Source: Terramyces sp. JEL0728 (taxonomy: Eukaryota; Chytridiomycota; Chytridiomycetes; Rhizophydiales; Terramycetaceae). Taken from it: a DNA stretch of 64,000 nucleotides. Made by a program: the position numbers and the translations under genes. This document shows, piece by piece, positions 1-64,000 of the stretch. The stretch spans positions 62,001 through 126,000 of the forward strand of contig JADIIU010000015.1 in the NCBI GenBank assembly GCA_027603945.1, in the 5' to 3' direction. Within the stretch, counting starts at the first letter, position 1. The number at the start of each line of letters is the position of its first letter. The notes beneath the pieces were generated by a model. That model made no database searches. It was not told the DNA's origin and saw only the letters and a list, made by a program, of their open reading frames with translations.

Positions 1-2
1 TT

Positions 3-1750
3 ACCTTTTTCTTGTGGATCAAAGCTTTGAAAATCGGATCCGCCTTCTATGGAACTCTGGCTGCCTTGTTTTACTTTTACATGGTATCAGCTTGGGGCGG
101 GTATGTTTTCATCATCAACTTAATTCCTCTGCATGCGTTCTGTTTGATTTTGATGGGAAGATTCTCCACAAGATTATATATATCTTACTCTTCTTTTTAT
201 GTAACCGGTACGCTTGCTTCAATGACTATTCCGTTTGTCGGTTTCCAACCTTTAAGAACTAGTGAACACATGGCTGCGTTTGGTGATAATCAACTAATAA
301 TAGGTGTCTTTGGTTTGTTGCAAATTCTTGCCTTTTGCGAAATGCTTAGAAGCCATCTTTCTGCTAACGAATTCAAATCTCTGTTCCAATTATTCATTGT
401 CACTGTTGCCGTTGGTGGGCTTGCGGCTATTGTTGGTTTAACTTATGCCGGATTGATTGCTCCATTTACTGGCCGTTTCTACTCGTTGTGGGATACAGGA
501 TATGCAAAAATTCACATTCCTATAATTGCCTCTGTATCAGAACATCAGCCTACTGCATGGCCGTCTTTCTTCTTTGATTTGCAACTGCTTGTTGCGGTCT
601 TCCCTGCCGGTCTATACTTTTGTTTCAAGGAGTTAAAGGACGAACATGTTTTCGTGTTGGTTTACGGACTGTTTGCTTCTTACTTTGCTGGTGTCATGGT
701 TCGTTTGATGCTCACTCTAACCCCAATCGTCTGTGTTGCGGCTGCTATTGCGTTCACCACTTTGTTTGATACCTACTTTGCCGACAATTCTGCAATTGCA
801 GTAGCCGAAGAGGAGTTGGAGAAAGAGCCAGCTAAAGAAAAGGAAGCTGAGCCAAAAACCCCAAGCAAGAAGGGAAAGAAGGAAGAAAAGAAAGTTGTCA
901 AAGAACAAAAAGTTCCGCATGGCTTGAAGATATCTTCGCTGAGATTAATTATCTTGATTCCATTCTTTGTTATTCTTGCAATGTTTGCTTGGCACTGTAC
1001 CTATGTCACTTCCACTGCATATTCTTCACCATCTGTTGTATTGGCATCCACTAACAGGGACGGATCTATGCACATCATTGATGATTTCCGTGAAGCATAC
1101 TTTTGGCTGAGACAAAACGTAATATCTTATTAACAAAGACTGATGAAAAAGCAAAGATTGCTTCATGGTGGGACTATGGATACCAAATTACCGGAATGTC
1201 CAATCGCACCACCCTCGTGGATAACAACACCTGGAATAACACTCACATTGCAACAGTAGGTAAAATCATGTCCTGTTCTGAAGAGGTTTCTTATGAAGTA
1301 ATGCAAAAATTGGATGTCGACTATCTCCTAGTCATATTTGGTGGCTTGATTGGTTATTCTGGTGATGATATCAACAAATTCCTCTGGATGATCAGAATTG
1401 GGGAAGGTGTGTTCCCAAATGACATTTCTGAAAGAAAGTTCTTTAACGACAGAGGAGAATATGCTGTAGGTGCAACTGCGACAAAGACGATGAAAGATTC
1501 CCTTATGTACAAAATGACCTACTACCGATTCGCAGAGTTGTTTGGAGGCAGAGGTGCAAAAGATAATGTCAGGGGACAGGAAATTCCGTCCACTCCTATC
1601 AAGCTATCTACTATTGAAGAAGCCTACACTACTGAAAATATGATTGTCCGTATTTATCAAGTCAAAAAGCCTGATAATATTGGTAGGCCTTTATCCGTTG
1701 CTTCTTCATTTGGAAAGAAGAGAAAGAGAAAGGCTAACCGTTCACAATAA
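3..1750 (+). CDS. STT3: Oligosaccharyltransferase catalytic subunit STT3 (5' partial)
   Basis: Catalytic subunit of the ER oligosaccharyltransferase, which moves the lipid-linked glycan onto Asn of nascent proteins. The window starts inside the gene; 568 codons remain. Visible hallmarks are SVSEHQPTAW (external loop, near 530-560), the DDFREAYFWLR stretch and the catalytic WWDYGYQ block just after 1160, followed by DNNTWNNTHIA and DINKFLWM. A charged Lys/Glu-rich insert lies at about 815-920. Two introns: 283-303 (21 nt, stop-free and in frame; its removal restores the conserved HMAAFGVFG) and 1119-1138 (20 nt). The stop TAA lies inside an AATAAA (1746-1751). Family assignment is very secure; the N-terminal exons are outside the window. 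Confidence 0.97.
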
Positions 1751-1791
1751 AACTCCAGTCAATTCCTCTTTTGAAAAATTTTCAGTAAAAT

Positions 1792-2314
1792 ATGCACGAT
1801 TCAACAGTTAAAGGAATTGAATTCGGAACAAAAGCATCAGGAAAAAACCTCCGCATACTAATTGGTAATCGCTTGTTGACAAGTTCATACTCGCTGGAAT
1901 TCCCCTATTGTTAACTTACTCGTTGAAGGAGCAAAGAGGACGCTATTGGAAAGTGGAGTTTCCCCAGAAAACATTGTACTACACAATGTCCCAGGAGCGT
2001 ATGAGCTTCCTTTTGCTACTCAAAAGCTGTTAAAGAAGAGCCAAGGTGCAGCAAAACCGTTTGATGCTGCGATTTCTGTTGGCGTATTAATCAAAGGATC
2101 TACTATGCATTTTGAATATATTGCCGATGCGACATCTCAAGGTTTAATGAGGATTGGATTGGATCTCGGAATTCCAGTTATATTCGGAGTCTTGACTTGT
2201 CTCAATGAAGAGCAAGCATTTGTCAGAGCAGGAGATTCTTCCAGAGGAGGCAATGCTCATAATCATGGAATCGACTGGGCACATACTGCTATTGAGATGG
2301 CGACTTTGGCGTAA
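1792..2314 (+). CDS. RIB4: 6,7-dimethyl-8-ribityllumazine synthase
   Basis: Penultimate step of riboflavin synthesis: condenses 5-amino-6-ribitylaminouracil with dihydroxybutanone phosphate. The 167-residue protein has the family length. Seen are the substrate-binding VPGAYELP, GVLIKGSTMHFEYI and the C-terminal NHGIDWAHTAIEMA, whose His/Gly region follows the yeast protein closely. A single 19-nt intron (1865-1883) splits the codon after LRILI; removal gives VHTRWN, the usual HARWN-like segment. The ATG is 41 bp after the STT3 stop. No targeting peptide is evident, so cytosolic. Presence of this enzyme argues for a fungus or relative rather than an animal, since animals lack the pathway. Confidence 0.96.
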
Positions 2315-3432: not shown

Positions 3433-3445
3433 AAATATATTTATT
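3428..3445. terminator. Shared bidirectional poly(A) signal between convergent genes
   Basis: AATAAA at 3428-3433 overlaps the F-box stop codon on the plus strand. TTTATT at 3440-3445 is AATAAA on the minus strand and overlaps the GTPase stop. The two stops are 8 bp apart, so each 3' UTR must lie inside the other gene. Confidence 0.6.
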
Positions 3446-4201
3446 CCAGCCAGTCTACTGTGGATGTAACTGCGTCCAACGGCAGTCCTGCTCGAAGAGC
3501 ATGCTTGTATTGTATCTTTTGTTCTTGAGGCAGCACCATGCCCAGCTGCAGCCCAACCGGCACTTTATACCTTTCCTTTTTTTCAGGAATTAGATTAAAT
3601 AGGGAATTGACGATAGAGTGAAATATCTGATGGATAGAGTCAACATCGTCTGTGACACTATATTAGTAACAAGTACCTGGTTTCAAAATATTCCATTTCA
3701 TAGGACTGCGCAAACTCTGAAGCATCTTCGTACAGGATAACCCGTCTTCCCGGCTGATCAATCTTGTTTCCAATCAAATATGATCGAAAACAACAATAGT
3801 CGTTGCGCAACGCCTTCATACCTTCAATCCAAGGCGACAGCTCTTCTAAAGCGGTCTTTCTAGTAACTGTATCAATAATGATTACCATCAATAAAGAATA
3901 TTGTTGCTGCTAATCCAGCTATATATCGCGTTGTTTGTGGTATTTCTGATGGGTCATCTGTTGCGTTCCAGTACTCTACTCGAATAGTATCATCCCCAAT
4001 ACTGTACATCTTTGGGATGATATTGATTTTACTCTTTGGTTTCTCCACGTCTCGCTGAATCTCCTTTTCCAGTATCTTTTCCTTATCGCTTTCCAAAGAT
4101 CCAACTGTTGCGATACAAAAATTTGCATCTATGTGCGTAACATCTTGTGTTGCTAGTGTCGGCAGGGATTTATGAAAGAATGTTGACCCGCCAATATCCA
4201 T
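3441..4201 (-). CDS. IFT27/Rab-like small GTPase with degenerate P-loop
   Basis: 240 residues in three exons (introns 3867-3885 and 3658-3676, both 19 nt). Downstream GTPase features are present: a strand ending in FFIDVT, the guanine-specificity motif NKID, and an ETS in the SAK position, in an arrangement (NKxD, GRR, then FETS) resembling IFT27/RABL4. The P-loop near residues 5-12 reads GSTFFHKS, so His replaces the second invariant Gly, and the preceding beta-strand is missing. An in-frame TGA lies just upstream of the ATG. It may bind nucleotide poorly or need an unrecognised upstream exon. IFT27 works in intraflagellar transport, which fits other flagellar genes here; that identity is tentative. 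Confidence 0.6.
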
Positions 4202-4220: not shown

Positions 4221-4541
4221 ATGCAAGAACCATGGGTTTCTATAAAAGAAAGCTTCAAGGCAGAAATTACCAGTACCAAAATATTAACCAGGTCCAACTT
4301 CATCAATAGAGAGAATCAAAGAGCATAATAATAGAGGAGTGGAACAGTACAAGCAGCTGAACGCACAAGCGCAGGAACTAGTAATACAAGCACACGAGCT
4401 TCAAAAACTATGTAGTTGTTATTGATGATAGATGAGCAGATCAATATTTCGTTCAGCCAGTTGGATCAAATCGAGCACTCCATCGCCATGCATGAAAAAA
4501 TAGTTGCAGAAATGGAAGAATATGTAAATGAGTTGAAATAA
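4221..4541 (+). CDS. BLOC1S2-like short coiled-coil protein
   Basis: 93 residues in three exons (introns 4273-4291, 19 nt, and 4412-4431, 20 nt), too fragmented to appear as one open frame. The second half is a heptad-rich helix pair with the order LYEQI..SFSQLDQIE..., then a helix ending YVNELK. This matches the layout of BLOC1S2, where a YLDQI-type segment is followed by the last helix. Members of that family sit in BLOC-1/BORC complexes on endosomes and lysosomes. Similarity is judged by eye in a short coiled coil and could be another small coiled-coil subunit. AATAAA overlaps the stop (4537-4542). Confidence 0.5.
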
Positions 4542-4738: not shown

Positions 4739-5074
4739 ATGGCAGGTAGGACAGCACCAATAACAATTAGGAAAAAAGAAGTGGTCAAAAGGACGTGTAA
4801 AGGACAAGGCAAACAACGCAGTTGTCTTTGATAAACCAACTTACGACAGACTTTTCAAGGAAGTACCAACATACAAGCTCGTCACTCCATCCATTCTCGT
4901 CGATCGTCTTCGTCTTAACGGATCCGTAGCCCGTGCTGCTATCAAGGAACTTGAAAAGCAAGGAATTATCAAAGCTGTTACCTTACACGGTGCCCAAAAG
5001 ATTTACACTCGTGCTACCAAGGTAATTGTATTTATTAACTTTAGGCTGAAGATGAAGCTCCTGCTGAAGAATAA
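4739..5074 (+). CDS. RPS25: 40S ribosomal protein eS25
   Basis: Small-subunit protein of the cytosolic ribosome. Three exons encode 95 residues: MAG, then the basic [12 protein letters not shown] segment, then the winged-helix core with [20 protein letters not shown] and [12 protein letters not shown], ending in a short acidic tail. Introns are 4746-4770 (25 nt, after seven coding bases) and 5022-5044 (23 nt). Both are longer than the 19-21 nt norm of the window. The protein is slightly shorter than typical eS25 because the N-terminal extension is reduced. A telobox-like element and T-tract precede it. Confidence 0.95.
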
Positions 5075-5293: not shown

Positions 5294-7027
5294 ATGTCTA
5301 GTGAAATCAGCAAACAAGCAGCCCTCGAAGAAGCAAAGAACATTATTGTTCAAAATATAGAGCCAAAGAAGCGCAAATACACCAAAAGTACTTGCTACTA
5401 ATGTAGAAGCAAAGTTGCAAGAGAATCAGGATCCATCTGAAGTTAAACCAAAGCGCAAGTACAATAAAAGTAGCCTACAACTAATCTAGCTGCCAAACCT
5501 AATCAACCCCCAAAAGAAAAAAAGACTGTAGATTTTTTGTAATATTAGAGAGCTGAACGGATTAGAGATGGTGATCCCATTAGGAAATACACTAAAAAAG
5601 CCAAAAATGAATCTCCAGCTCCTACTTGGCCTGTATTTGATCCAGAAGTAGTTGCAGAATTTTCCAAATTATATCCAGACCGTGTTCACCAGATACCTAC
5701 ACACACTCACGCAGATACAGGGATTGCCTACATCAATGAAGCAAATCCAATGGTTCACGTCAATGACGCAAATATCAGAGATCGAGGTAATTAATTCTAA
5801 TCGCAGTTGCGATTACTGGGATGACACTATCTCCAGATGGCTCGTTTTTAGTTACATTCTGTAATGCAGGGACTGCATGTATTTGGGATATGAATACGTT
5901 TGAAAAATTGCAATGTTTAAAAGACGAATCGGAGGCCAATATAGATGAATTTTACACTGGCTGTTGGACATTGGATTCTAAACATATTATTATTGGCGGA
6001 AAACTAAAAGACAGACAGAGATGGTCGGAACCAGACGATGATAACCACATCTTGCCATGTCCACTTAAAGTTTTTGATGTAATCAAAGGAAAAGTAGTCC
6101 AGACATTTCACGGACATTTTGAAGAGGTTCTGTCGACAGACTTGATTGAATTTAAAGGCGATACGTATTTGCTATCCACCAGCCAAGACGGATACATTAT
6201 AATTTGGAAAATAGACCCAAATTTCAAGTAAATTGGCAATTTATACAGGGAACCTCCTGAAAAGAAACAAATCACGGATGGATATACATGTATGGCATTT
6301 ACAACTTCATTCTTACCAAATACCGGCAACAAGTACTTTATAGCTTCATGTGATGACAGCATTCGACTATACGATTTTGAAGAATCAAGAGTAAATATCT
6401 CTCATCTAGTTGTTGCAAACATTCCCAAACATATTTTCGTGTTATTGCGACTATAGCACTTTTCTTAATTGCTTAGATTACGAAGCCAGTCCTACTTGGG
6501 ATCAGTTTTCCGAGGACAATCCAATGTTTTCATTCTTGATTTGTCGTGGAGTAGAAGTTTTGGATGGGGAAGATGAAACAATAAGTATCTTTAATCTAAT
6601 CCAGATACAATTCCAAACTCTGTTAGTTTGTACAAAATGGTTTACCCAACAAAGAAAGATGACAAATTCCAACTTGAATTGGTCCGCAAATTCCAGCATC
6701 CAGAGTATAGATCTAATTCATGGCTGGTAAAACTGGCTACGAACGGGAGATATGTTGCTGCTCCAACCTATGACGGGAATATTTTCATCTTCCACTTGCT
6801 AACTGGACAGGTCGTTGCGATATTGAGAGATCATCAAGGTAGCTTTTATTAATCTAGAAATCGAACTTCGCGATGTATTGTTCCATCCGACAAAGAAACT
6901 ATTTCTATCCAGCGGAGATGACGGGATAGTCCATGTTTATTCGCAAGATCCAAAAGTGAACGCAACTACTTGTCTGGAAGATAGCTCGAGTGCTGAATTG
7001 GATGATAGCTCGAGCGTTGAATTTTAA
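5294..7027 (+). CDS. WD40-repeat protein with basic N-terminal repeats
   Basis: Nine exons, 524 residues. The N-terminal 100 residues carry three near-identical basic motifs (KKRKYTK, KRKYNK, IRKYTKKAK), AT-hook-like or nuclear localisation in character. The rest forms WD40 blades, for example TLSPDGSFLVTF..ACIWDM, LLSTSQDGYIIIWKI, FIASCDDSIRLYDF, YVAAPTYDGNIFIF and FLSSGDDGIVHVYS. Introns: 5388-5406, 5470-5489, 5528-5548, 5787-5806, 6228-6248, 6391-6409, 6585-6604 and 6839-6857 (19-21 nt). A nuclear or chromatin role is plausible from the basic repeats, but no orthologue is recognised. The first three introns fall between or within the basic motifs. Confidence 0.85.
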
Positions 7028-7216: not shown

Positions 7217-7947
7217 ATGACTAGTAGAGAACCTGAAATTCCAGCACCACAGGCGCAACCAAACATCGTTGCTTTTTCCACAATACAGCATGAATTTAAT
7301 TCAATCGGAGTTTCGAATACATTTCACCCTTCAACCCATAGACTGAGACAAGCAGCAGCTCAGGCATTAGCAAGATCGCATCATAATAGATCAGGTAGAA
7401 TACAAATCCAGCAAATTTCTCCTAGAAGAGCGAGCTCTTCCAGTGGTACAGTCAACCCGTCCATTCATCCGCAATTCAGAAGTAAAACCGTTTGCAATCT
7501 ATACTGCAGCCATTGCGAATCTCGCTTGTGTGAAAGGGGAATGCGTGCTATTTTGTTGGGAAATACGTCTGTTGAGTTATATTCGACAGATAGGCCCCCT
7601 TTTGGCGTCGCACTGGTGGACAAGGACTACTTTACCAAGAATTGCTCGTAAATGCTTTGTATAACCTTAGATGCAGAATTCGCGATGCTGCTTGTCTAGG
7701 TTGTGGAAATGTTGTTGGATACCATGTAACTCACCCGTGTGATAGGTGCTTAGATTCGTGTAATAATGGTAGATATAATCTGACCTTAGGTCACTTTTGG
7801 ATGTTTTTGAGCGATGCTGTCTGGGCTAAAGATCGCTTGGAACAAAGCGGAAACACCATTCTAAAATGGTCCTCGCTTGCTGGAGTTGACGACCGACTGG
7901 ACATTGGTTCTCCAGCCGAAAATGAAAATAACGCCCTCTGCCGTTAA
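7217..7947 (+). CDS. FAM72: FAM72 family protein
   Basis: 228 residues in three exons. The C-terminal about 135 residues follow animal FAM72 closely: paired cysteines (YCSHCESRLCERGM), LLGNTSVELYSTD, YFTKNCSCRIRDAACLGCGN, VGYHVTHPCDRC, then CNNGHFWMF. In vertebrates FAM72A binds the uracil-DNA glycosylase UNG2; the fungal role is not established. The N-terminal 85 residues are Ser/Ala/Arg-rich and probably disordered. Introns: 7648-7670 (23 nt) and 7769-7789 (21 nt). The second is in frame and stop-free, so it reads through, but removing it restores the exact family sequence at CNNG/HFWMF. Zinc binding by the CxxC pairs is likely. Confidence 0.9.
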
Positions 7948-7981: not shown

Positions 7982-10630
7982 CTATTCTTTTATTGATTCG
8001 TCATTTGCCACCTTGTCTATATCTGAATCTGCCCGTTCTGTCTTTGCCGAAAGTATCTGCACCACTCTTTTCATTGCTTTGATTCCACTTTGTGAATTTA
8101 GGACGTCGTTGTTGTCCGGTATGACACCTGCTGCAAATTTGATCTTGGCACCTAGCGTTGCATCGTCTGTCAGAGCAAAGTGTCTAATATGATGAACAAG
8201 CAGTGCATTGGACTCTCTATCGCCCTCTATTTTTTGCTGATAAGATGTCAATCTGAAGGTTTCAAGTTCTGCACAAATCGAAAACATGTTGTAGTATTTT
8301 TGGAAATTGATCTTGCGAGTCACTTCAGACGACTCTTCTTCGTCCAAAAATGCTGGCGAGTTATTATGTATATGGATTAAATCTAAAAAGTACGGAACTA
8401 CGTAAGGGATATCTTACCCAAAAACGGAATGGCAGGAGGCGTTGTGCTTGTGATTGAATCCCAATATTCTTGATACCCATTTGAATAATCCATAAGCTGG
8501 ATAATTTCCCTGAAAATGTCCAAATATTTAGTCGGAAGCGCCTGAATTTAATTGAAAACTACCTCCCAAGCTTGCGACCATATCAGGACTGACGGCCGCT
8601 TTAAGCCATACGCAATAGCAAACGCGCTGTTATAATTACCCAATTCTAGACAATTGCGAGCAATTTTTAGCAATATTTTCAGTGCCGCAGTCTTCTTTTT
8701 GGTCGTGTCTTCTTTTAAAACCACTGTTGCAACGTACGAAACCAACTAGAGTTAACGTTACTTACAGTCCTAAACCAAGCACAGTAGTCCAACAAAGTCT
8801 TTAAAGGCAAGTTGTATCCACCACCAGCAATATCAGCAGGAACCGCCAAAAGTTGTAAATATGTATCTGGCTTGACTTGTCTGAATAGATAGTGCTCCAC
8901 CATAGTCAGATTATCAGCGAACGCATAGGGCTCCCATTCAAAGATTAAAGGTCTCGAGAAATCCGTGTTGGATCGATCCATGGTAAACATAGGAATATAC
9001 TGCGATGTGTACCACGATAAACGCTGCTGTTATGCAAAAAATACCTGTTCTCGAACAGCATGAACCAACTTTTGATTATTTCCAAACGACTCTGTTGCCA
9101 ATACATTGATAAAATCATTCAAAGCGCTGTACAGTTTGGGATTCACATGAAAATCATTCCAATGGTTTCTGATCCATACTAAAAGTATTCGAAGACTCCT
9201 TTGCTGTACAACTTTTTTCAGTTTACGATAATTTGCATCTGAAGCAGGTTTTTGGCCTGGTTCGACATCAGAATTGTACCACCCCGCAAGAGTCTCAAAC
9301 ACTTCCATACTGGACACGAAAAATCGGTAGTTTGCCAAAAATACTTCTGCAAAAGACATATCTTGATTAATCAAAGTAAACCTTGATCAACTGGGAATAG
9401 CAAGCTGTCCAGTAGACTTTTAACATCTCCAGCTGTTATCATAGCCATTCCTGAAAAGGTCGAATCATCATATACTACTCCATTTAGCACCTTTTCTGGA
9501 TTTTGATTCAACGTTTTGGGTGGGATTATTGCGGCTTTGTCTATATTAAATAAATTGGCGGTAGATCCAGTGTCTCCCTTTGTACTCCATGTTTGATCCC
9601 TTCTGGTCAAGTAATAGCATTTTGCTATCCACATCATCCTGTCAATTGGGTCACTAGCAGGGTTTTTTTTGCCAAAAATAGCCAGCAAGTCAAACTGAGA
9701 TGGGGTAGGGATGTCATCCAGCCTATTTTTGTACTGCAAATCATTGGCTATGATTAATTGAGAACTACCTTTCAATAGGTTCACGTAAAACTCTTTAAAG
9801 GTTTTCGGAGCAACAGGTTTGGTCATTTCAGGAGATAAATTAACATTGATATTTTCACCACTTCCCGTAAATGTAGACATTCGAGTATTTCGTAAATTGC
9901 TAATGGCTGTATATGGTGCAGTGATGTTTTCAGTGGGGGTACGCGCTCTTGGTCCATCATTATTCGGATTTACCGTTGAAGTTTCAACTGGGGTAGCCGA
10001 TGTAGATCTTTTTGAACGATATTTGGTGTGTTCGCTTATGGATTGTGGGTTATTTACAATGTCCTGCGTGAATGTGACTCCGGTTGTTAACAGGGAGGCT
10101 CTGGCGTTCTTCTGAGGTGTCGGCGTTACTAAAGCTGTATCAGACTCTTCCTTTTCTTCAAAATTCCCTCGATGTTTACTTGCTATCCGTTGGTGGTTCA
10201 AAAGTTCGATGGATTTGTGATGAGCTCGCTTCTGGCTTTGAGTCCGAGCAAATATCTGCGTTCTAAGTATTCCAACTCCTCCAAACGTTGCTGAAACTTC
10301 TGGAATCACAATATCTTCTATGCTCGTGTCATTTAATGGAAGTATTACCCCGTCAATCTTTATTTCAGGGTTCTCTGTTATATTCTGCAAGGCATCTGCT
10401 GAAAGACTGTATCTCATTTTCTTTCCGTCTAGGGAGTTTTCACTAATTGACGCTTCCTTCCCCTCCAGATTTCCTGCGCTTCCAATTACATCTTCGCTAT
10501 GGCGTCGTAACGGGGTTGTTGGCCGTTCTTCTTCAGGACTAGCTACTGTTGGATTTTGATTTTCCTTATCAGACTTTTCCAAAACTTCCTCTGGTTGTTT
10601 CTTTTTAGCTTTTCCTCGAAATAGGTTCAT
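7982..10630 (-). CDS. Ras guanine nucleotide exchange factor (CDC25 type)
   Basis: 848 residues in six exons; introns 9362-9381, 9024-9044, 8746-8765, 8542-8562 and 8398-8417 (20-21 nt). Residues 1-290 are Ser/Thr/Pro-rich and probably disordered, starting with a basic MNLFRGKAKKK. A RasGEF_N (REM) region follows, with FAEVFLANYRFF and LRILLVWIRNHWNDF. The catalytic CDC25 domain has MVEHYLFRQVKPDTYLQ, a helix KIARNCLELGNYNSAFAIAYGL and PPAIPFL followed by LDLIHI. It should load GTP on a Ras-family protein at a membrane. The 21-nt introns contain in-frame stops. Ends 35 bp from the convergent FAM72 stop. Confidence 0.92.
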
Positions 10631-38714: not shown

Positions 38715-38734
38715 TTATTAATTCTAAAAAAGGT

Positions 38735-52000: not shown

Positions 52001-55000
52001 CCAATCAGCGATTTGACTTGGAAAGAACGAATTTGCAAGAGCAAGTCCATGTGTTGACTGTTGAGTGCGACAGCTCGCGAAAGGTATTCTTTCTCTAAAC
52101 TAGAAAATTGATAATCTGACAAACGATCGTGTTAAATTGCAAGAAAAGTATGATGTTTTATTTGCTAAAAATCACATTCATGATAATGTCCGTTCTGTTG
52201 AAATTGCACCTGAAGAAATTAGTGATCAAGAGGATGAAAACCAATCGTTGCTTGGCACTAGAGACTTGGTCCCAGTAAAAGACGATTCCAAATCAGTCAG
52301 CGATGGACAGTTAAAACAGCTTGAGCAACGATTAGCAGTTGCGAATAATAATCAATTTGAACTGAAATCAAAGGTCGCCGAATTGGAAAAAGTAAGAAAT
52401 CGTTAATGTAGAAACTTGATGCAAATGCTCAAGAGTATGAAAAGGAAAGAAACGGATTGTTACAAGCAACTGCAGGGTTGAATGCAAAGAATGACAGACT
52501 GGATCAAAAATTATCTCAGGTTGAACAGAATTACCAAAAGTACCTAGATGAAACTCAACCGCGATTGAAAAACATGAAATACGATCTTGATAGTCTACGA
52601 GAAGTTTACTCGGAAACTAAAGGATTGTTGGACAATACTAAAGATGATTTGGAGGTTTTGATGGTCGAAAATAGCAGTTTAAAGTTGAAATATGCAGAAT
52701 TAGAAGCTGTAAATGGCCACCAGAGATCTACCCTCAGCGATTTAGACACAGAACTAGAAATTTGTTATCAAAAAATCAAAAATTTAGAAAAGGATCTGAA
52801 AAACGCTACAACTAGTATCGATTCTCTTCAATTGATGATTGCTAGTCAAAATTATCAGGATCAGATATCTGCTTTAAAATCAGAGCTGCAAAAGTGTCAA
52901 TCAGACTATAACCAAGCCATTGTGCTTTCTCACTGGAATCTTGGACATGCGCAAATACAGGCTAGCGAGGTGCACGACACGACCACTGTCAAAGCAGCCC
53001 AGGCGTCAGAATCAAGTGACTTTATTCGAAAGCAGAGGCAATTAGGTGTTGACTATACACATGATGATAACGTCGCACCAGATATGTTGGTTGAACGTCC
53101 ACTTTCAAGGGCATTGACAAGCACCGGTGACAATGAAACATCTTATGTGACTGCAGATAGCGGTGTATTGGATAGCCAAGTTGGTCTCCAAGAGAAAATC
53201 GATGTGCTGCAGGAGCAAATTCAAGCATTGCATGTTGCAAACTCTAAACTGGACCAAGAAATTATAAACTCAAATTGGTTACTGGGTGAAATTGGCATCC
53301 AAAATGTCCGGTATAATGAACAGGAAGCGCTCGTGAATGATTTGAAACCCCAAACAGATGGCTTGAAGCAACTTTTGGCAAGTAGAATGGACTCGATAAC
53401 TAACTTGAAAAACAAACTCTCACAGAAAGAGGTTGCATTTGCTTGGAATTTTGCCCAACATATTATTGATAACAACAGACAGGTTTGCAGTGCTCAAAAG
53501 GAGTTGGATGACGCTCTTGTTCAAAAAGAAAATGATTTTGCGCTCCTTGCAGCCATTGCATTCGTTTTCATTTCATTGGTTTTTGGAACTCAATCTGGGG
53601 TTAATGCACCAGAACCAAGACCTAGAAACAACCAAGAAGTTACACTGAAAGCGAATGATGACCAGATTTTGATTGAAAAATTGTGGAATTTGGGAGAAAG
53701 AGGTATTATGATGCAGAAACTTACTCTGCTTCAAAACAACTTTGATAGATTGTCGGCAATTCATGGTGTGGCCAAAAGAGATATTGAAGCAGATACGCAT
53801 TCGACTGAAGAATTAAAGAAGAATCAACCAAAGATTCAAGAGCTTGATGGCCAGGCTAAAGAACAGAATAATGATACGCGAATTCTTGACTCTGTAGAGC
53901 AATATATATTGGATATGGAATCTAAAATGGAATCCCTTGAACTTTCAGTTGAAAAATATCATCATTTGAAAGCAACAGAGAAGGAAGATTTCAATTCAAT
54001 TGTTCATTTGCTCAATATTTTGGAAAAGAGTCTATCAGTAGATAATTTTAAAGTAAACAGCACTGTTCCTGGCCGTATTGCGATTATTATCAACGAAATA
54101 GAACGAAAGAAGATGAAATTGGAAGATTCAAGCAAAATACTAGAGGAAGAACTCTCTCGTCGTACTAGCATGCTAGACCTGTCAGAAAATAAATACATGG
54201 ATGTGTGTGCGAAATACGACAAGGTAATTTCTGACCAGGATAGCTCTTTTAGTCAGCTTTATATAACGAATATTTGGAACTTGGCAAGTGTGGAAATTCT
54301 GAATAGCCAAATTGTAGAAAATGGCAATAATCGCTCGACTTTAGAAAAGCAACGGGAATCTCTTGATAAGGAACTGGCTGACACTATTTCTGCATATGAA
54401 TCATATATTCTCCAACACAAACAAAGTAGCGATCAACAAGAACAAATTATGCGGGCAAATAGTGAAATCCTGAATAGTTGGAATCAAGCCTCTACTCTAA
54501 TACTGAACAGTCGTGGCAAAGAGTACGCAACAAATATTGCACACAGTGAAAATACTGCAAGAGACCTGGTTGATACTAGACACAACCAAAACACTTCAAG
54601 AGATACCTTGCTGATTGACTCAAAAGATATGGATCAACTGCACATTATTAATTGTTGGAACCAATGCTGCATTGAAATCCTTAATCAGAAAATAGCTGAA
54701 CTCTCGAAAAAGAATGACCATCTGCATGAAACCAAGATTGCAGCAGATTATGAATTATCAAAACACCAAAAATTATCAAAAGACATGTCCAAAAAACATC
54801 AAGACCTGATTATTCATTACCAGACAGTAGCGTTGGTGAAAGATAAAGATATTTCCCAGCAATATATACAGAGTATTTGGCAACAAGCCAGCTTGGAGAT
54901 TCTTAGACAGGAATTTCATGCGCTGTCGAATGAAAATTCCGCCAGTTTAGCTTCGGATTTAGGGCAGCCATCAAGCACTGATGAAGTTCAAACTGCAGAA

Positions 55001-57790
55001 AAGTCACAAAAATCGATCGATTCGTTGGCAATACTTGAAAAAGAATTAAGTTTGCCATCCTCAGACACGAATTCTAAGCCGAGAGACTCTGTACTAGAAA
55101 ATATTCAGCCAAACACAATGGATAAAGAGCAACTTGCAAACCTGTTCATCCAAAAATGCTGGTTGCAAGGGGAAATAGGTATTTTACACTGCGATATGCA
55201 GAATTTGGCAGACTTTGATCTTGATCAGCTACATATTCCGCGCCTTGATATATCTTCATTCAACTCTGAAGACATTTTCTTGGTGGACACTTCAGGACAA
55301 ACTCGCTCAATATTAAATACTGTCCCGGGAATAGCATCGTCCGACTCAAATTTAAATTCCATTATAAATAACACTTCTGATGATACAGAGTCTGTTTTCT
55401 GGCCAACTGTGTCCGACTTTTGGAGATCTCATCAGTTGCACGCTGAACACAAAATGGAAACTAAAATCCTAACAGATTCGAATTCGGTATTAACGAGCCA
55501 ACTATATAGTGTGATAGAAAGAAACCAAGTCTACCATAACAGCGAACAGGATTTGAAGCAGGAGTTGAATGCACTGAGGAATCAACATGAAAAGGAATCT
55601 ACCAGAAATATCAGCCGGCAGTATTCAAATGAAATTTTGGGGATGCGTATGGAAGTTGATAACATGCGAATGGATCTAGGAAAGGCGAATATCCAAATCT
55701 TGAAATCCAAAAAATACATACGAGAATTGGAAGGAGTCTCGAAAAATCTCCGACAAGAATTGAAAGAATGGGGATTGCAAAATGAACAGAAATATGTTGA
55801 GTGGGCTTGGATGTATGCCGAGGTTCAAATTCAGATCTCTGATTATTTGAACGACAGTCAAGCTGCCTCCAAAGTTAACCTGTGGGAAAATACAGATGAT
55901 ATTATTCCAAAGGGGCTGAGCACTGAAACACTAGCAATGTTGAAATCTATAGATCAATATGATTTTAATGCTCGTGAAATCAAAATAGATGACTTGCAAA
56001 ATCCCATTCCTCCAAGGTCTATTGTATATCAGGATAACACATTCAAACTCCAGATGGACAAATTTGCCGAGTATTTTCAACTCCTCCTTGACAATGTACA
56101 AGTTTTACCCGAAAAGAAGGCTATTCTTGAGAAGCTTACTTTCAAAATCCAGGATATGTTCAACAAACAGTCTCGCAGATTACAAAAAAAGAATGACATT
56201 CATAAAAGAGCAATGGCAGAGTTGGACTCGCTTCAAACATTAAGCAACAGCCAAAAGTTGGAAAACCTTTTAAAATTGTATAGATACTACATTGTACAAG
56301 TTGCACTAGATAGGGACCGGGTGCTAAATAGGTTGAAGCGCGTCAACCTGATGCAAATAGCACAAAAGTCCACCAATAGGAGCATACACAAATCTGCCAG
56401 CGTGCAGTACATTGGCATCTCAAGGAGGCTATCCTATCAATCCAATCTACAGCTTAGACGCTTTTCGAGTGTTAGAGTTACAGGTGACTCCAAAGAATTG
56501 GAGATTAAAATGGATAATCCTCTGGGACGAGCTAGAAAAGCTGATGTGCCAAAAATGACAACTATTCCAGAAGATTCTGTGCCAGAAATTCCTCCGTATA
56601 TGGTTGAAGTTCAAGGTATAGCGCAAACTAAGAAACTTCAAAGCAGGATGGCCTCTCTCCAAGAACAAATCAAACGCGATCATTTTGTCATCGAGCAGCT
56701 AAAAGCTGACTTGGGGTATTACCTTCCTCTTGGTAATTACAGCACAATGTTTGCAAAGGTCAGGAGGCAGGTTGATGATCAACGCAAAGTCATAGCAATG
56801 CTTGAAAGCAAATTGTTTGATTTGGCTTATGGAACTCTAGAAAGTAATAAGTTGGCAAGACCTGAAAATTCCCAAATCAACAAGGAAAATAATAAAGGCA
56901 AGCCGGAAATGCAAACTCCTTTGCTGGATGGAAAGCATGCTGAAGTTTATAACTCCCAGAAATCTCCAATTAGTGATACCACAGTAAGGGATTTAAAGAC
57001 ACCAACTATTAGGGATATTAAGGCGCTGACTGCTAAAACACCTACTCTCAAGGATCAAACTGGCGATATTAACACCCTTGCAGTTGAAAGCAAGATTGGC
57101 AAAGATTGTGTTGTACCAGAAAGCCATCCTTTGTATCGGAAATCTGGGGTAGAAGCCGTTGAAAGATCAAACACGATTACAACATTTGACTTTAGTGACT
57201 CGGAATGGTACGAAGTCCTTCCAACTTTGGAATATGGAGGTATTGTGGAAAATATTACTTTGTTTCCACCAAAGAAAAAGGCTTTCAAAACCACCAGAGA
57301 AGTCAGCCAGCAACTTCCCCCTTCTCTTGTTGCAGAACTAGCCAACCCGATTCCACAAGAAACCATTCCTTCGCCTCCTACTTCCTTGATCTCGGTTCCA
57401 CCGCAGCAAGATGTCGTATCTGCCACGTCAACCCCAACAATTTTATCCGATGTTACAAGTTTAGCCAATCTTAAACACAATTTAGTAAAATTGGCAAAGG
57501 ACAACCGCCAATCGAGTGCCTCTGAATCAACCAAAGTAAACGATAGATTAGCCAGTCCGCTAAAATCAGAAATTGGCCAGCCTCAAAATAGAGTAATCAT
57601 TAATGATAGCTTGCAAAGGGTGAATGAAAGTTTACAAAGAAGAAATAACATTATGAACCAGAAATATCAATCCTCTTTCCCATCAGACAATAATGTACCA
57701 AATCAAGTAGCGGCGCGTACCTTGACCGAACCCAAGCTACCAAAAGTATCCCGAATGTCAGGACTAAGAAGAAAGTTTAGTTTTGAATAG
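49073..57790 (+). CDS. Giant coiled-coil protein with kinesin-like head
   Basis: 2,878 residues in five exons; introns 49699-49719, 51695-51714, 52084-52103 and 52392-52411. Residues 1-260 resemble a degenerate kinesin motor domain: an opening HVLVKCILKENQELKI and FTFVLDGFV, and an end VVVLRISQDSYRLSETLHLL in the place of the usual ETLSTLRFA. No Walker A (GxxxxGKS/T) is present, so it is probably not an ATPase. The rest is long coiled coil with a Trp-centred motif (W, N or Q, small residue, then I/L six residues on) recurring about eleven times between 50878 and 55840. The basic Ser-rich tail has TPT-type repeats (KTPTIRDI, AKTPTLKD). Possible microtubule or basal-body scaffold; function inferred. 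Confidence 0.7.
52927..55840 (+). repeat. Recurring Trp motif in the giant coiled-coil protein
   Basis: Copies at about 52927 (SHWNLGHAQIQ), 53268 (SNWLLGEIGIQ), 53431 (FAWNFAQHIID), 53672 (KLWNLGERGIM), 54262 (NIWNLASVEIL), 54468 (NSWNQASTLIL), 54644 (NCWNQCCIEIL), 54868 (SIWQQASLEIL), 55148 (KCWLQGEIGIL) and 55795 (WAWMYAEVQIQ), plus an outlier at 50878 (NQWLVADSMIT). Tryptophan is otherwise nearly absent from the coil. Confidence 0.8.
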
Positions 57791-57907: not shown

Positions 57908-59365
57908 ATGCGTCAAGGACGACTGCAGGCATCCACATTAGCCAACATCTGGAAATCGTTAGATCCAAGCAACGACCCAATTACCTCCAGTTCTACCAAA
58001 GATAAAGTTTCCATAAATACTTTAGAGCCATTACAGAAACAGTATATACCACAAACTGCAGATTCCCCATTGTTTAGATTAATTTCTGTATCTACTAGCT
58101 CTGACGATTTGGTACTAGCAGAGTGCACACCTCAGGATAGAAATAGCCAATCTGCAACTCTCACTGGAGGTTCTCAAAATTTGTCCGGCAGACCTGCGCA
58201 TTCAGCTCAGGTTAGAGGATTCAGCGTTCCAAATATTACTTCGACAAGCTTGGAGCTGCTAAATCAACGGGTGGTACAATCAACTTCAAATTTATATGGA
58301 TGTTCAAGCGCAATAGAACCTATTCAACTGCCTGAACGTCCCTGTACACCAGAACCTACAGAAAGGGAACCACAGATTTTTGGTTCAATTGTAAATCAAA
58401 CCTCACAGTCATCGTTAAATCGAAGTGTATCTTTCACAACCAATTTGCCAAAGAGCAATCCCTTAGATTGGAAAGACGAGTATGCTCATATTGATATTGA
58501 TTGGTCGATGCAAGCAATGGATGTGCTATACAACGCTGCTTTTTATGACTACATTCGTGATGAGCGAAATGTAGACCTTTCAGCAATTAGATTAAGCAGA
58601 ATTATCAAAGATTATAAGCCAAGACAAGTAGCAAATGCCCTGTTATGGATGATCCAAGGTTGGTCTGTAGAAACAACGTCAAAACTATTAAGAATTATAT
58701 TTTCTGACTGGTTGCCTGATTTAGCGGGGTAAACTTGATTAACCCAGCTGTGTTTTTTCGCTAATTAGCCGTAACTGGCCTAGAACTCCACAGTGTAGTC
58801 TGTGTGTTGCTTACTTGTTAATGTCAGAACCTGCAAACACAGCAGCCCTATTTTTACGATCCTTGATGCAGAATTGGACTAGGAAGGAAAGCATTGATTT
58901 AGTTACATATCTCGACGCCATTTTGAAGTGGAATACGGAATATCTTCAAGAGGTTATGGCTGTTTATGCAAATCCAATTTTGCCATCTCTCCCTCTCCTG
59001 CCTAAGCCGGCAGAAGTTGAAGATAAAGTTGAAAAGTTTAAATCAAGTATAGAAGAGACGTCCCATAAATTAGTAAGTAGATTATCTTATTCAAGCAATA
59101 GATGCTCGCCAATGCCCGGTTAGCCGTGGCAGAATATCAATTAGCTCTTTTTACCCATTGGTCCAGCTGCATCAAATGCCAAGCAAAAGAAGAATGCAGC
59201 GTATTGAGCAAACTTACTTTACCAAATTACAACTCGTCTCAACATGACCTGGGACTTGATCAGATTTCCAATTTTTCAGAAAGTGATAGTGGGTCAGCTT
59301 GGACTTCCCAAGTGATAGATTTTTCTAAAATGGAGAAGGATAACAGTGGTTCAGAGTCAGAATAA
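57908..59365 (+). CDS. Unknown protein with Trp-rich helical repeats
   Basis: 469 residues in three exons (introns 58729-58747, 19 nt; 59073-59101, 29 nt). Residues 1-200 are Ser/Thr/Pro-rich and disordered. Residues about 200-400 are helical, with aromatic-ended helices spaced 25-35 residues apart (ALLWMIQGW, LRIIFSDW, FSLISRNW, FLRSLMQNW, LDAILKW), suggesting a solenoid. No named family recognised. The 29-nt intron is longer than usual and its choice rests on frame. The TAA stop overlaps AATAAA and is 4 bp from the convergent mannosidase stop. Confidence 0.7.
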
Positions 59366-59374
59366 ATCTTTATT
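59361..59374. terminator. Palindromic bidirectional poly(A) signal
   Basis: AATAAATCTTTATT: AATAAA on the plus strand overlaps one stop and TTTATT is AATAAA on the minus strand overlapping the other. The stops of the two convergent genes (59365 and 59370) are 4 bp apart. Confidence 0.65.
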
Positions 59375-62300
59375 CAATTTTGATCAACAATGTAATAAGT
59401 TTGAACGGAAGATATTCAAGCTCGATAATTTTTCCATCGGTATCCAATGCTTCGAGCTTTTCTTCAATGACATTTGAGAGATAGGCTTTAGAGATTTTAA
59501 AGGAGCTTATGTTAGCGTTATTTACCTTGAAAGAGTAACCTTGCCTCTACCTCCACAGGCTTCATACAATCGTACGACAAAGTATTGGTTTTGATCAAAT
59601 TTCTCTGCTGGTTTGATTGTGTCAATTACGATATTTTTGTGATTAACCTCAAAGAAGGAATTGTCAAGAACAGGTTTGCTACCAGACACAATTTCCAATG
59701 GAACATTGTATTGGTAAGCTTCTTGTACTACATCCGATTCCAAAAAGGATCCTTTGTGTGGCAGAATTGCGTAACTAAATGTTTGTCGCCCAAGGTCGGC
59801 CTCTTCATCTGGAGATTTCGGAGATCTCAATATGGACATGGAAATAGTGTTTTTATGGACTGAGAAGCCGTATTTACTAAGTTAGACACAGTTTACGAGT
59901 CATTCAACAAGGCAACACCAAATCCAAACTCAGAGTAGTCAACATACTTGTGGGCACAGACTTCGAATTTAGCCATATCCCAAGAATTGTTGAAATGAGT
60001 AGGGCGTTGAATATATCCAAACTGGGTTTCAAAGGTGGCATAATCGCACTCCACGTTAACAGGGAATTCAACTTTGATAATTTTTCGGCTTTCTTGCCAA
60101 AAGATTTCATTTTCAAAGGTAATGAGTTTACTTCCAGCCGAAATCGTGATTTTTTGTTCCAAAGTGCTGGTTTTTGAAATTGGATGGATGACCTTTAATA
60201 TTACGCAAAGTGGTCCAGCTTCTGATACAGTAACTTTACCAACCCCTGCTTCCCAAGCCTTTTCTAAATGATAAATTTCAACGTCCCAAGCATCCCAATA
60301 GAGTGGGATATCTTCGTAGAACTTGAAGACATTTCCTAAAGCATTTGGAAGAATGGATTCCCTGCCAACCTCCCTGTCGATCAATGAAAAGAGTCTTCCG
60401 TGTTCGTCAAAGGAAGCTTGAATCAATCCATTATCGACGATAAACCGATTTGGCAAGGTTTCAACTAATGTCAATACATTCAAAAACCTAAAACAAAATC
60501 TTCAGATGTGGTTTTTGTTATAGGGTTTTGGTTCACCACCTCAACTAGATTATAAGATCAGTTCTTATAGCTAGTTTGGCGAAAAAGATTTACCTACCTT
60601 TTACTTGATTTTCAGTTGCTAACGAAGCGGTGGAAACAAGGTTACTGGAAAATGCCGGAATTGGCTGGACTAGAAGTTAGCCACAAATTACTGAACTCGA
60701 ATCCGTATTGTCTATCCGACGTATATTGCTGGTAGGATACACCATCAACAGCAGGAACTTTGACAACACTTGACTTTAGCGGCCAGGAAGTGAAATTGCT
60801 AGCGATTAAAGCATTTCCTTCTCCATGCAACAGCTTAATGGCTTCGTTCTTTAGGTTTGTCCCGGAAAGGGTAATGTCTTCATAAAACTGTGTAAGAAAT
60901 GCTTTACCTTCAGCGCATCGACATAGACCAGACCAATAGATGATCCAGGTAATACATCATGGAATTGATTTAGCAATAAAAGCTTCCACAATCTGTCAAT
61001 TTCGGCTTTGGGATATGTGCTACTCTTCTTTGTCGCAATGCATAACGACCATAGGAGCTCAACAGCGCGCAAGAGATATTCAGAATACCTATTGTATTTC
61101 TTTACCAGCCCGTGGGTAGTATAAGTCCCACGGTGCAATTCAAAGTATAATTCCCCTTTCCAAGTATTCAAGCCATTGGACGTTTCTTCCAGCTCTTCAT
61201 AAAATTTGTTTGGATCGCCAAATTTGGTCTGGGAAGGAAGACCTTCAATGTTTCCGAACCGCTTGATTCTTTCAATCATTGGCAACAGCGGACCTCCACC
61301 GCCATCGCCATTTCTTTGGTTACTATGCTTTTACCCATATAACAATAAGGATTTATTGCTGTATTGCTTGTCCTTGTTGTTTGCCACTGCAAAAACCGCA
61401 TCTTTCACGGAGGCTTGTGCTGTGTATGTATCCGCAGGTGAAAAGTGAGTCAAGACACTAGTGCCATCCAATCCTTTCCAGTAGAAAGATGTATGTGGGA
61501 ACTTGTTGATGTTATTCCATGAAAGTTTTTGAGTGAAAAAGTACTTTAATCCAGCACTGGTTAGAATTTGGGGTAATTGAGAAGAGTATCCGAATGTATC
61601 TGGGAGCCAGAATACACTGTGTCTGAATCCAAACTTTTCATTAAAGTAATTCTGCCCGTACAAAAACTATTTTAGTTTAGGCTTACCTGTCGACAAAATG
61701 CTTCACCAGATGGAACATTGCAGTCCATTTCTACCCAGGTTCCTCCAATGGGAACAAATCTGCCGGTTTTGACTAATCCAACGATTTTTTCAAAAAGACT
61801 TGGATACAACTGTTCAAGCCATTCGAACTGTTGCGCTTGCTATTCATTAGAAATGTTTACAGATGCTGCAAAAGTGTATTCTGGGTTTTGCTCTAACAGT
61901 CTGCACTGAGTTGCCCAACTTCTTGCGATTTTTCTTTTGGTTTCGTCGTATGGCCATAACCAAGCAGAGTCTATCATTATTGCGATTTACCAATGTGGCA
62001 GTTGCCGATTGCAGTGATTGCGTGGGATACATGTCCCAACTCTTTTTTGCGTATTTTAAAGAATTTAGTTCCAATTTCCTTGGCTGCAACTAAAGTGCTT
62101 GGCTCGTCATTTCTAATTGCATTTACAATTGAATTAGCAGTAGATAAAGCATCATTCCCCAGTTGGGATTCAACAGGCATTTCTTTGATTATGCCCAACA
62201 AAACCTCGAGATCCCAGTAGATTGAACGTGCCAATTCGTTGTAGCAAACCAACTTTACAGTTTTCAGAGCAAAACTCCTGTTAGGATCAGGAGCGTTTAT

Positions 62301-62799
62301 CAAACCGTTGAATCCAGCTCCAAACATGCCATTTGCGCCGACTTCAACGTATAAGGTGAATTTCTAATTAATTAACATCTACCTGTCCTGCTGGTGCACC
62401 ATTTGTCAAATCAAAATCAACGTGACGATCTATTCCAAAATCGCCAGTAAGTCCTTGCAGTGGTTCTCCCCTATCGCTCCACACTAATCCTTCGCAACTT
62501 GGATCAAAGATCAAGTATACTTTGCGATTTTCCATCGATTTCGGAATAGTAATTTCCAATTTAAACCAATGAGTAGACCAAGTTGGAGTAATTAGATCTC
62601 CAACCTTTGCTGGAACGTATTCACCTTTCATCGCTTGGGCAAACGGGATTCTCTGCAGGTTTGGTACAGCAAATTTGGTGATGCCGACTGATTCATCAAC
62701 GATTTCTTCAAGGAATGATTGAAGATTGACATCGTAGAACATGTCGGACTTGAAGTACTTTTCGATGCGCTCAACTGTGATATTCCGGTGTTTGAGCAT
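59370..62799 (-). CDS. AMS1: GH38 alpha-mannosidase (Ams1/MAN2C1 type)
   Basis: 1,056 residues in twelve exons. Retaining alpha-mannosidase that trims free oligosaccharides in cytosol or vacuole. Signatures: [13 protein letters not shown] (zinc site, exon joined at 61971-61990), [38 protein letters not shown] (nucleophile region), [51 protein letters not shown], and the C-terminal [18 protein letters not shown]. No signal peptide, as in Ams1. Introns: 62364-62382, 61971-61990, 61840-61860, 61667-61686, 61314-61334, 60888-60907, 60670-60691, 60545-60597 (53 nt), 60465-60487, 59877-59896, 59506-59525. Confidence 0.95.
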
Positions 62800-62908
62800 T
62801 TCAGATTCGAAAGTTAAAACGTCACGATCTGTGGCTCCAATTTATACCAACATGCGGTTTAGTCTTTTCCACCCACTTTTAGAATCACAAACCACTTATT
62901 AAGCACAC

Positions 62909-64000
62909 ATGACTGAACACAACCAAGCGGAATTTGAAGCCATCGAACTGCAAGCGGATGCAACGTTTCTAAATGCCAATTACAAATATGAGCTGGTTGC
63001 GGGTGGTGTAAATATATTCAGGAATAATGCATTACACCTTGCATTGAAAGGAGAATACTACATTATGGAACCTGTTGCTTGCGGAATTTGTTGCACTGAT
63101 TGTGCCAGGCCGTACCTACCTTATGTGCTACCCCAAATCATTGGACATGAAGTTGTGGTAAGAATCCCAAAATCCATTGCCCGTGACAATGCAGAATTTG
63201 GCGTAGTGGAAATCAACAATTCGCACAAGTCCCATGGGGATAAACAGCCTTGTTCATTTTGCGAGAATGGATTGTGCAGTCAATGTCCATCACGAATCAC
63301 AATGGGCATCAATACATGGCCAGGCGGATTAGCTAAATACATTGTAGTGCCAAGATATAACCTGTATCAACTGCCACCTAGTTTGAAGTTATCCCCAACT
63401 ACCGCAACATTAATTGAGCCGTTCGCAGCGGCACTACATGGTGTGAATACTGTTTCGAAAAAAGGCAAGGACTACGCTGTCTTGGGTGCGGGAAAACTAG
63501 GATTGCTTACCATTGCCGCTCTGAATTTATCGAGGAATGATTTTGAAAAAGAAATTACAATTACTGCAATTTTACGCAGCAGCAATAATCAGGAAGAAGC
63601 CATTCTGTTTGGAGCTGACAAGGTGTTAATCACCTACGGTAAAGGAATAACAGATAAGTTTGATGTTGTTTTTGATACAACTGGCTCTTCAGAAGGTTTG
63701 CAGTGTGCTGTCGGTATTGCCCAAAGAGAAGTGCATTTGAAGAGTACCCATGGCCAGCCAATGCTAGGATTCAAGCACTTTACTGAAATGGTAGTTGCTG
63801 AAATCAGTCTACTGCCATTTTCATTAGAGGCTCTGGCTTATAATATCAAATCCCCTTATTCCAACGCAAATATTTATGTTGCAGAATCGGTATCAGATGA
63901 AATTACCAGGGCAATTACTAATACCAACCGGAATGTATATCAAAACACTCCAGCAAATGCAGATACTTGGCTGGAAAATAGTAGTGGCTCTGCATTACTG
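62909..64000 (+). CDS. Zinc-dependent medium-chain dehydrogenase (3' partial)
   Basis: 364 codons open to the window edge with no stop and no intron. N-terminal GroES-like domain with catalytic zinc residues (CGICCTDCARP, then IIGHEVV), a structural-zinc-type Cys cluster (CSFCENGLCSQCPS), NTWPGGLAKYIVVP, and a Rossmann fold opening YAVLGAGKLGLLTIAA. Belongs to the alcohol/threonine/polyol dehydrogenase superfamily. The substrate cannot be told. The segment after residue 250 diverges from common members. Starts 109 bp from the divergent mannosidase start. Confidence 0.85.
   Translation, partial: MTEHNQAEFEAIELQADATFLNANYKYELVAGGVNIFRNNALHLALKGEYYIMEPVACGICCTDCARPYLPYVLPQIIGHEVVVRIPKSIARDNAEFGVVEINNSHKSHGDKQPCSFCENGLCSQCPSRITMGINTWPGGLAKYIVVPRYNLYQLPPSLKLSPTTATLIEPFAAALHGVNTVSKKGKDYAVLGAGKLGLLTIAALNLSRNDFEKEITITAILRSSNNQEEAILFGADKVLITYGKGITDKFDVVFDTTGSSEGLQCAVGIAQREVHLKSTHGQPMLGFKHFTEMVVAEISLLPFSLEALAYNIKSPYSNANIYVAESVSDEITRAITNTNRNVYQNTPANADTWLENSSGSALL

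Follow-up and report, generated by a model that had tools for sequence, protein, structure and literature searches.

Introns of 19-21 nucleotides (nt) form a real, genome-wide class in the chytrid fungus Terramyces sp. JEL0728 (Rhizophydiales, Chytridiomycota). This is confirmed here starting from a 64,000-nt stretch of its DNA, C15:62001-126000 of the assembly (15.0 Mb, 231 contigs), which is called the window and within which positions are counted. A preliminary description, made from the letters of the window, had rightly seen a fungal-type genome in it. The micro-introns are very probably spliceosomal. Almost certainly, they would be U2-type introns of the chytrid nuclear genome which have converged on about the smallest size that its spliceosome accepts.

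The first gene-finder pass admitted any GT...AG of 12-120 nt at a single flat penalty within a coding model, with no preference for length or motif; the peak at 19-21 nt was already present (37 of 82 calls). After iterative training on a 264-kb sample from two contigs (the window and 200 kb of another), 452 introns were called, 421 of them 19-23 nt long; gene models scoring under 12 were left out of this set. The window contributed 115, of which 109 were 19-23 nt. Correction by hand leaves 114 introns in the window; 111 of them measure 19-23 nt, and 104 fall within 19-21 nt. There are 30 of 19, 49 of 20, 25 of 21, 2 of 22 and 5 of 23 nt, and one each of 25, 52 and 133 nt. The preliminary description had placed about 110 introns, some 95% of them at 19-23 nt, and these counts bear it out; the uniform class of about 20 nt that it proposed holds for these 111, but not for at least one longer intron (133 nt). 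Introns occur in 123 of the 157 gene models in the sample. The genome is very compact, with 224 of 264 kb spanned by gene models and 2.9 introns per gene. By extrapolation, it would contain about 25,000 introns if the density of the trained set holds.

A raw map and a decoy test were run because training can feed on itself. The raw map collects all GTA...YTAAY...AG triples in the sample, with no gene models and no distance prior. Sorted by the nucleotide of the branch adenosine and the length of the tail after it, the cells (14,5), (14,6), (15,5) and (15,6) contain 55, 47, 39 and 32 sites; the background is 1.68 +/- 1.5 sites per cell. The row with the branch adenosine at nucleotide 13 is sparse, with 8 sites over tails of 3-14 nt, compared with 24 in row 11 and 29 in row 12. 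This could be chance (some far rows, 22 and 31, hold 10), or near-miss sites may be avoided. In the decoy test, eight dinucleotide pairs were decoded agnostically, with lengths of 12-150 nt equally allowed. GT-AG gave 49 of 122 calls at 19-21 nt, and the seven decoy pairs gave 0-6 of 80-98.

Counts of GT[AG]...motif...AG show the same excess in both contigs. In the window there are 41, 40 and 33 at 19, 20 and 21 nt, where a third-order Markov model predicts 12-14; the 200 kb of the other contig hold 96, 134, 93 and 72 at 19-22 nt against 45 +/- 7. Motif-perfect sites are called as introns in 166 of 173 cases; of the seven not called, five are antisense to a gene, one is intergenic and one lies in a same-strand gene model. 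Fourteen further contigs (54.8 kb) contain 54 motif sites where about 2 are expected. The loci on these contigs were reached through protein- and RNA-family searches rather than drawn at random; six of 23 were dropped (overlapping, near-copy, or on contig 1), and two retained loci on C184, with 6 of the 54 sites, are possibly copies of each other. The class is considered genome-wide because the raw map, the decoys, the motif-perfect sites and the 14 further contigs agree.

The intron consensus is AAG/GTAATT...YTRAY-NN(N)-AG (the slash marks the splice junction). YTRAY ends 2 or 3 nt ahead of the AG in 351 of 452 introns, much as the preliminary description had it (GTA, a branch motif, a short tail, AG). 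The T of the branch motif is present in 449 of 452 and the A in 450 of 452; these figures are partly fitted by the model, and the motif is also strong in the raw map and in 22 introns supported by homology. With sites chosen under a distance prior, 378 of 426 introns have the branch adenosine at nucleotide 14 or 15, and 374 of 426 have a tail of 5 or 6 nt. In the 22 homology-supported introns, which include the DnaJ intron corrected by inspection, the adenosine is at 14-15 in 17.5 of 22 without such a prior (ties shared). This puts a figure on the earlier remark that the 5' splice site and the branch point almost touch. The two intervals vary independently (Fisher p = 1.0). With 2 against 16 (p = 1e-4), the cell (14,4) is almost empty beside (15,4), which shows that 19 nt is the lower limit. 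At position +5, introns of 19, 20 and 21 nt carry T in 44-48% of cases and G in 19-21%; T makes up 40% of the intron interior, and phases 0, 1 and 2 occur 191, 133 and 102 times.

Individual junctions were compared with homologous proteins of organisms outside the genus. Both junctions of STT3 are ungapped against 8i9p_Lh, as is the one junction of lumazine synthase against 2jfb and the last three of six in the Cdh1/Fizzy-related gene against 4ui9_R; the first three of the latter lie outside the alignment. In alpha-mannosidase 2C1, all four other chytrid genera aligned (Globomyces, Kappamyces, Powellomyces and Spizellomyces) show eight of the nine micro-intron junctions without a gap; the ninth (60670-60691, 22 nt, in a poorly conserved region) is ungapped in three of the four. 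One Pfam stretch (YPEH2ZP, 175 bits) spans both junctions of FAM72. In DNAJB13, three of five junctions are clean, one is beside a gap, and one was mis-called by the finder and corrected by inspection only. For genes without homology-checked junctions, the gene finder is the sole source. Three junctions named in the preliminary description were right: HI/DSAWLWP in the mannosidase (20 nt, 61971-61990), HMAAF/GVFG in STT3 (21 nt, 283-303) and CNNG/HFWMF in FAM72 (21 nt, 7769-7789). It had also noted that exon sums are divisible by three; the frames are indeed restored, but the divisibility is not independent evidence because gene models are built that way.

Longer introns, deposited models and alternative explanations

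Homology shows one 133-nt intron in the mannosidase gene (60465-60597), and the join used here is seen in Boothiomyces proteins. A 25-nt intron in eS25 is probable, and a 52-nt intron in the RasGEF gene is putative. The 14-nt intron called in the DnaJ gene (g14) was a finder error, the intron being really 23 nt long on inspection (17239-17261). A 15-nt intron in g29 and a 97-nt intron in g11 were removed as finder errors on judgement, without homology.

Micro-introns are already annotated in public databases, and so are not unknown there. Public Terramyces protein models splice 14 of the 18 compared (mannosidase 8 of 9, TFIIIC 6 of 9). The spliced mannosidase equals the deposited Terramyces sp. 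JEL0728 protein, save for 43 residues absent there (1056 against 1013 residues). In the deposited mannosidase of Boothiomyces macroporosus, 6 and 17 residues are missing at the very positions of Terramyces micro-introns, hinting that Boothiomyces has tiny introns at these sites too, misplaced in its models. Among the open-licence PMC titles and abstracts listed, there was no description of intron size in Terramyces or Boothiomyces; this is a weak negative, as subscription papers and preprints were outside its scope. The available portions of PMC6572847, PMC9698843, PMC10459994 and PMC11649378 contain nothing on tiny chytrid introns.

Several results count against a class of micro-introns as drawn here. 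The 133-nt intron shows that longer introns, too, are within reach of the machinery. The length and branch priors of the gene finder were learned from the same data, which leaves the agnostic run, the raw map and homology as the independent evidence. In the window, the finder mis-called four introns: it proposed ones of 14, 15 and 97 nt and broke the 133-nt intron into two. It also overlooked the FAM72 gene. Support is partial in TAM41, where one junction is clean, one is beside a gap of three amino acids and two are at or beyond the alignment edge; it is weak in eS25, where both junctions are near the alignment ends. At three sites in the TFIIIC gene (g17), all of 19 nt, the deposited Terramyces model lacks residues. 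Boothiomyces JEL0866 matches the deposited reading at the first and third of these sites; at 24227-24245, the deposited Terramyces and JEL0866 models both have two residues fewer, as would be expected if the intron were 6 nt longer. U1, U6 and RED were not found in genome searches in which the control genomes were silent for all three, and absence is not claimed.

It could be argued that most of the true introns are conventional and longer, and that the micro-introns are fragments picked by the gene finder. The splitting of the 133-nt intron into two false ones and the three g17 sites favour this, as does one deposited mannosidase intron, which appears to run from the donor of the 22-nt intron to the acceptor of the 133-nt intron. 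However, that deposited intron removes 43 residues which are partly kept in Boothiomyces, and B. macroporosus agrees with the 19-nt splice at two of the three g17 sites, although JEL0866 does not at the first. Outside 18-23 nt, moreover, GT-AG is no commoner than the decoys (0.5 per length against 0.53-0.72). This explanation is very improbable. Slighter still is the chance that errors in sequencing or assembly, or the decay of pseudogenes, produced the gaps as frameshifts or insertions. Unspliced junctions do run into stops or frame changes, but errors would not carry GTA, YTRAY and AG at fixed spacing or fall in so many of the gene models, and conserved proteins would not come out seamless after removal. 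The segments might also stay in the messenger RNA and be skipped in translation, or be removed from the DNA. Translational bypassing and DNA elimination are known elsewhere, but the signals are those of U2-type splicing, splicing factors are encoded, and 27 introns, among the 105 called whose length is a multiple of three, have no in-frame stop and would need no such device; there is hardly any likelihood of it. A relict endosymbiont nucleus was discarded as an explanation in view of a 15-Mb genome with chytrid proteins.

Splicing machinery and recognition of the introns

Part of the splicing machinery was seen in the genome. The preliminary description had suggested that U1, U2, SF1/BBP and U2AF genes be inspected for reductions. 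U2 small nuclear RNA (snRNA) is a full-length match (all 192 model positions, 140 bits) and keeps GTAGTA, and SF1 and U2AF-like genes were found; U1 was not, in searches where the controls were silent as well. The SF1 gene has SF1-HH, KH and zinc knuckles (Pfam) and is modelled with micro-introns and one putative 63-nt intron. The U2AF-like gene aligns with the large-subunit family in two segments (68-471 and 468-507 of 510; 252 bits against a cut-off of 310). The match reads through four stops, which are in or near the four modelled 19-20-nt introns of the gene; after splicing, the protein has two RRM stretches in Pfam.

Two Rfam matches to U6 (27 bits, below the cut-off; L030 C199:4823 and L031 C111:34941) were rejected, as they are nearly identical stretches and probably copies of one repeat. 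As a query, human U6 had no match. Two of four U6 patterns had no match, one had a match with 3 mismatches, as did the control, and one fell inside an apparently protein-coding stretch. The RED_N profile and the U1 searches gave no match, with silent controls. The failure to find U1, U6 and RED may reflect divergence, introns inside the gene, an assembly gap or a weak first filter.

U2-type splicing is indicated by GT...AG emerging from an unbiased start, by a YTRAY that is predicted to pair with U2, and by the restoration of protein sequence. The preliminary reading as spliceosomal micro-introns is supported by the GT-AG ends, YTRAY, restored frames, seamless junctions and the encoded U2, SF1 and U2AF. 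The narrow length peak below 25 nt, present on two contigs and backed by the strict motif on 14 more, is that of a tiny-intron class; a weak or absent branch-point consensus, reported for the two best-known such classes, is not seen here.

A typical intron begins with GTA; in its YTRAY the adenosine that would react is nucleotide 14 or 15, and the closing AG ends 5 or 6 nt after it. The independent intervals then yield 19, 20, 20 and 21 nt, 19 being the lower limit. YTRAY would be read by U2 snRNA (GUAGUA) with SF1/BBP, and the lariat loop would be 14-15 nt. Recognition would be by intron definition, because the stretch past the branch point is too short for a polypyrimidine tract; U2AF could perhaps bind a T-rich stretch upstream of the branch point. 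From the sequence we infer excision in RNA, a steric optimum behind the length peak, these roles of SF1 and U2AF, and whatever lets the 5' splice site and branch point engage at such close range. It is conceivable, if rather doubtful, that changed U1/U6 contacts or B-complex proteins adapt the Terramyces spliceosome structurally to measure 13-14 nt (first base to branch point) plus 5-6 nt, with 19 nt as the minimum. T over G at +5 and the lack of a recognisable U1 or U6 among the matches could be signs of such an altered spliceosome.

Genes of the window

Genes and introns of the window are listed in the table.

Genes and introns of the window after correction by hand (gene models scoring under 8 left out; intron lengths in nt in brackets where given)
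Gene	Span (strand)	Introns	Basis
STT3 oligosaccharyltransferase, cut at window edge	3..1750 (+)	283-303 (21), 1119-1138 (20)	homology, both junctions ungapped
Lumazine synthase	1792..2314 (+)	1865-1883 (19)	homology
Ras-family-like protein	3441..4201 (-)	3867-3885 (19), 3658-3676 (19)	gene finder; Pfam Ras
Small open reading frame g5	4221..4541 (+)	4273-4291 (19), 4412-4431 (20)	gene finder only
Ribosomal protein eS25	4739..5074 (+)	4746-4770 (25, probable), 5022-5044 (23)	gene finder and alignment, junctions near its ends
g7, WD40-like by reading	5294..7027 (+)	5388-5406, 5470-5489, 5528-5548, 5787-5806, 6228-6248, 6391-6409, 6585-6604, 6839-6857	gene finder only
FAM72 (Pfam YPEH2ZP)	7217..7947 (+)	7648-7670 (23), 7769-7789 (21)	Pfam stretch across both
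g8	7982..10630 (-)	9748-9768, 9362-9381, 9024-9044, 8746-8765, 8542-8562, 8398-8417	gene finder only
g9	10815..11692 (+)	11363-11382, 11623-11643	gene finder only
RasGEF protein (g11)	13669..15251 (+)	13794-13814, 14143-14162, 14255-14274, 14707-14725, 14796-14814; putative 14851-14902 (52)	gene finder; Pfam RasGEF, one stretch, residues 135-302
g12, coiled coil by reading	14899..15933 (-)	15848-15870, 15717-15737, 15583-15602, 15243-15261, 15154-15172	gene finder only
TAM41 phosphatidate cytidylyltransferase	15978..17111 (+)	16152-16172, 16356-16376, 16758-16777, 16965-16983	gene finder and partial homology
DNAJB13/RSP16-like DnaJ protein	17149..18226 (+)	17239-17261 (23, corrected from 14-nt call), 17344-17362, 17432-17451, 17730-17748, 18054-18072	homology; corrected one by inspection
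g15, coiled coil by reading	18303..19462 (+)	18407-18426, 18481-18500, 18701-18720, 18981-19000	gene finder only
TFIIIC subunit tfc4 (g17)	22063..24889 (+)	22134-22152, 22340-22358, 22519-22538, 23252-23271, 23600-23619, 23844-23863, 24080-24099, 24227-24245, 24361-24381	gene finder; deposited model agrees at 6/9
g20	26917..29291 (+)	27091-27111, 27124-27143, 27261-27279, 27377-27396, 28350-28369, 28763-28782, 29194-29213	gene finder only
DFP-domain protein	29979..31036 (+)	30190-30208, 30577-30596, 30651-30670	gene finder; Pfam
g22	31203..35920 (+)	32095-32114, 32388-32408, 33981-34001	gene finder only
g23, cytochrome b5 / oxidoreductase-like by reading	35981..38714 (+)	36326-36345, 37001-37019, 37327-37346, 38242-38261	gene finder only
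g24, acyl-CoA ligase-like by reading	38735..40741 (-)	40558-40578, 39586-39606	gene finder only
Cdh1/Fizzy-related	41485..43020 (+)	41576-41595, 41624-41642, 41679-41701, 42210-42228, 42332-42350, 42626-42645	homology for last three
g26, coiled coil by reading	43051..45125 (-)	44917-44935, 44585-44604, 44084-44102, 43873-43893, 43617-43636, 43144-43163	gene finder only
Lunapark-like	45224..46667 (-)	46614-46634, 46532-46553, 46343-46361, 46135-46154, 45908-45927, 45739-45757	gene finder; Pfam
Mitochondrial carrier	47645..48589 (+)	47982-48002, 48506-48526	gene finder; Pfam
g29, long coiled coil by reading	49073..57790 (+)	49699-49719, 51695-51714, 52084-52103, 52392-52411	gene finder only; 15-nt call at 54224 dropped
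g30	57908..59123 (+)	58729-58747	gene finder only
Alpha-mannosidase 2C1	59370..62799 (-)	62364-62382, 61971-61990, 61840-61860, 61667-61686, 61314-61334, 60888-60907, 60670-60691, 59877-59896, 59506-59525, 60465-60597 (133)	homology

The convergent g11 and g12 models overlap (13669-15933), and the 3' end of the g11 model is unreliable. In g29, a hydrophobic stretch is found next to the dropped 15-nt call (54150-54350); an unrecognised in-frame intron is possible there. The DNAJB13/RSP16-type radial spoke chaperone gene (17149-18226) fits a fungus with flagellated zoospores. There was no Rfam match in the window at the gathering score. Elsewhere in the genome, WD40 matches of identical score repeat within contigs (C44:46714 and 82621; C29:29236 and 56212; C210:10348 and 12707; and, on opposite strands, C29:103787 and 131137), suggesting recent segmental duplications or assembly duplicates on C29, C44 and C210.

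Comparison with other minimal introns

The nucleomorph (18-21 nt) and Stentor (15-16 nt), named beforehand as known cases of such short introns, are the closest known systems, and the portions available of PMC6461891, PMC4035089 and PMC9505925 agree with these lengths. According to the first two, nucleomorph introns are 18-21 nt in Bigelowiella natans and mostly 18-23 nt in Lotharella oceanica, 19 nt being commonest; for chlorarachniophyte nucleomorphs these excerpts report no obvious 5' or branch motifs, a phase-0 excess, and shortened U1 and U5. On this showing, Terramyces shares the uniform tiny GT-AG introns and the phase-0 excess. Unlike these relict endosymbiont nuclei, it has strong GTA and YTRAY signals, full-length U2 and a 15-Mb fungal nucleus. 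Stentor coeruleus, in the sections available of PMC9505925, has A/U-rich introns of 15-16 nt in 18% of its genes, with the branch adenosine at nucleotide 10, a 5-nt tail and no strong branch consensus; the commonest intron starts GUAAUU. As far as that account goes, uniform tiny introns, the 5-nt tail and the GUAAUU start are common to both, whereas Terramyces has its branch adenosine at 14-15, a strong YTRAY, and introns in most gene models.

Two other cases are less close, again from partial texts. Type B introns of Trichomonas are likewise short, uniform and spliceosomal (about 25 nt, down to 23 nt), but there are 24 in an intron-poor genome (PMC12316389) against hundreds per 264 kb in Terramyces. 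Cryptococcus neoformans is also a fungus with many short introns; their mean is 56 nt, nearly three times the Terramyces average, and binned lengths range from 20-40 nt to more than 500 nt (PMC11913375). The portion available of PMC6692369 reports that about 50 nt are needed between the 5' splice site and the branch site in human extract, where Smu1 and RED help short introns, and that the human B complex contains a 17-nt extended U6-intron helix. By these figures, neither the spacing of about 50 nt nor the 17-nt helix fits inside Terramyces introns. As far as these excerpts allow, Terramyces would work like nucleomorphs and Stentor, yet its signals are strong and its nucleus is that of an ordinary fungus.

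A fungus rich in introns of 19-21 nt would be a further minimal-intron case beside relict algal nuclei and a heterotrich ciliate. Since the consensus at its branch sites is still legible, the spacing limits of its spliceosome can be taken straight from the two intervals, both almost constant; this is hard in the other cases. There is also a warning for annotators. Public models of this family drop or alter residues at several of these introns, and spliced-read aligners with a longer minimum intron would be expected to miss the Terramyces micro-introns.

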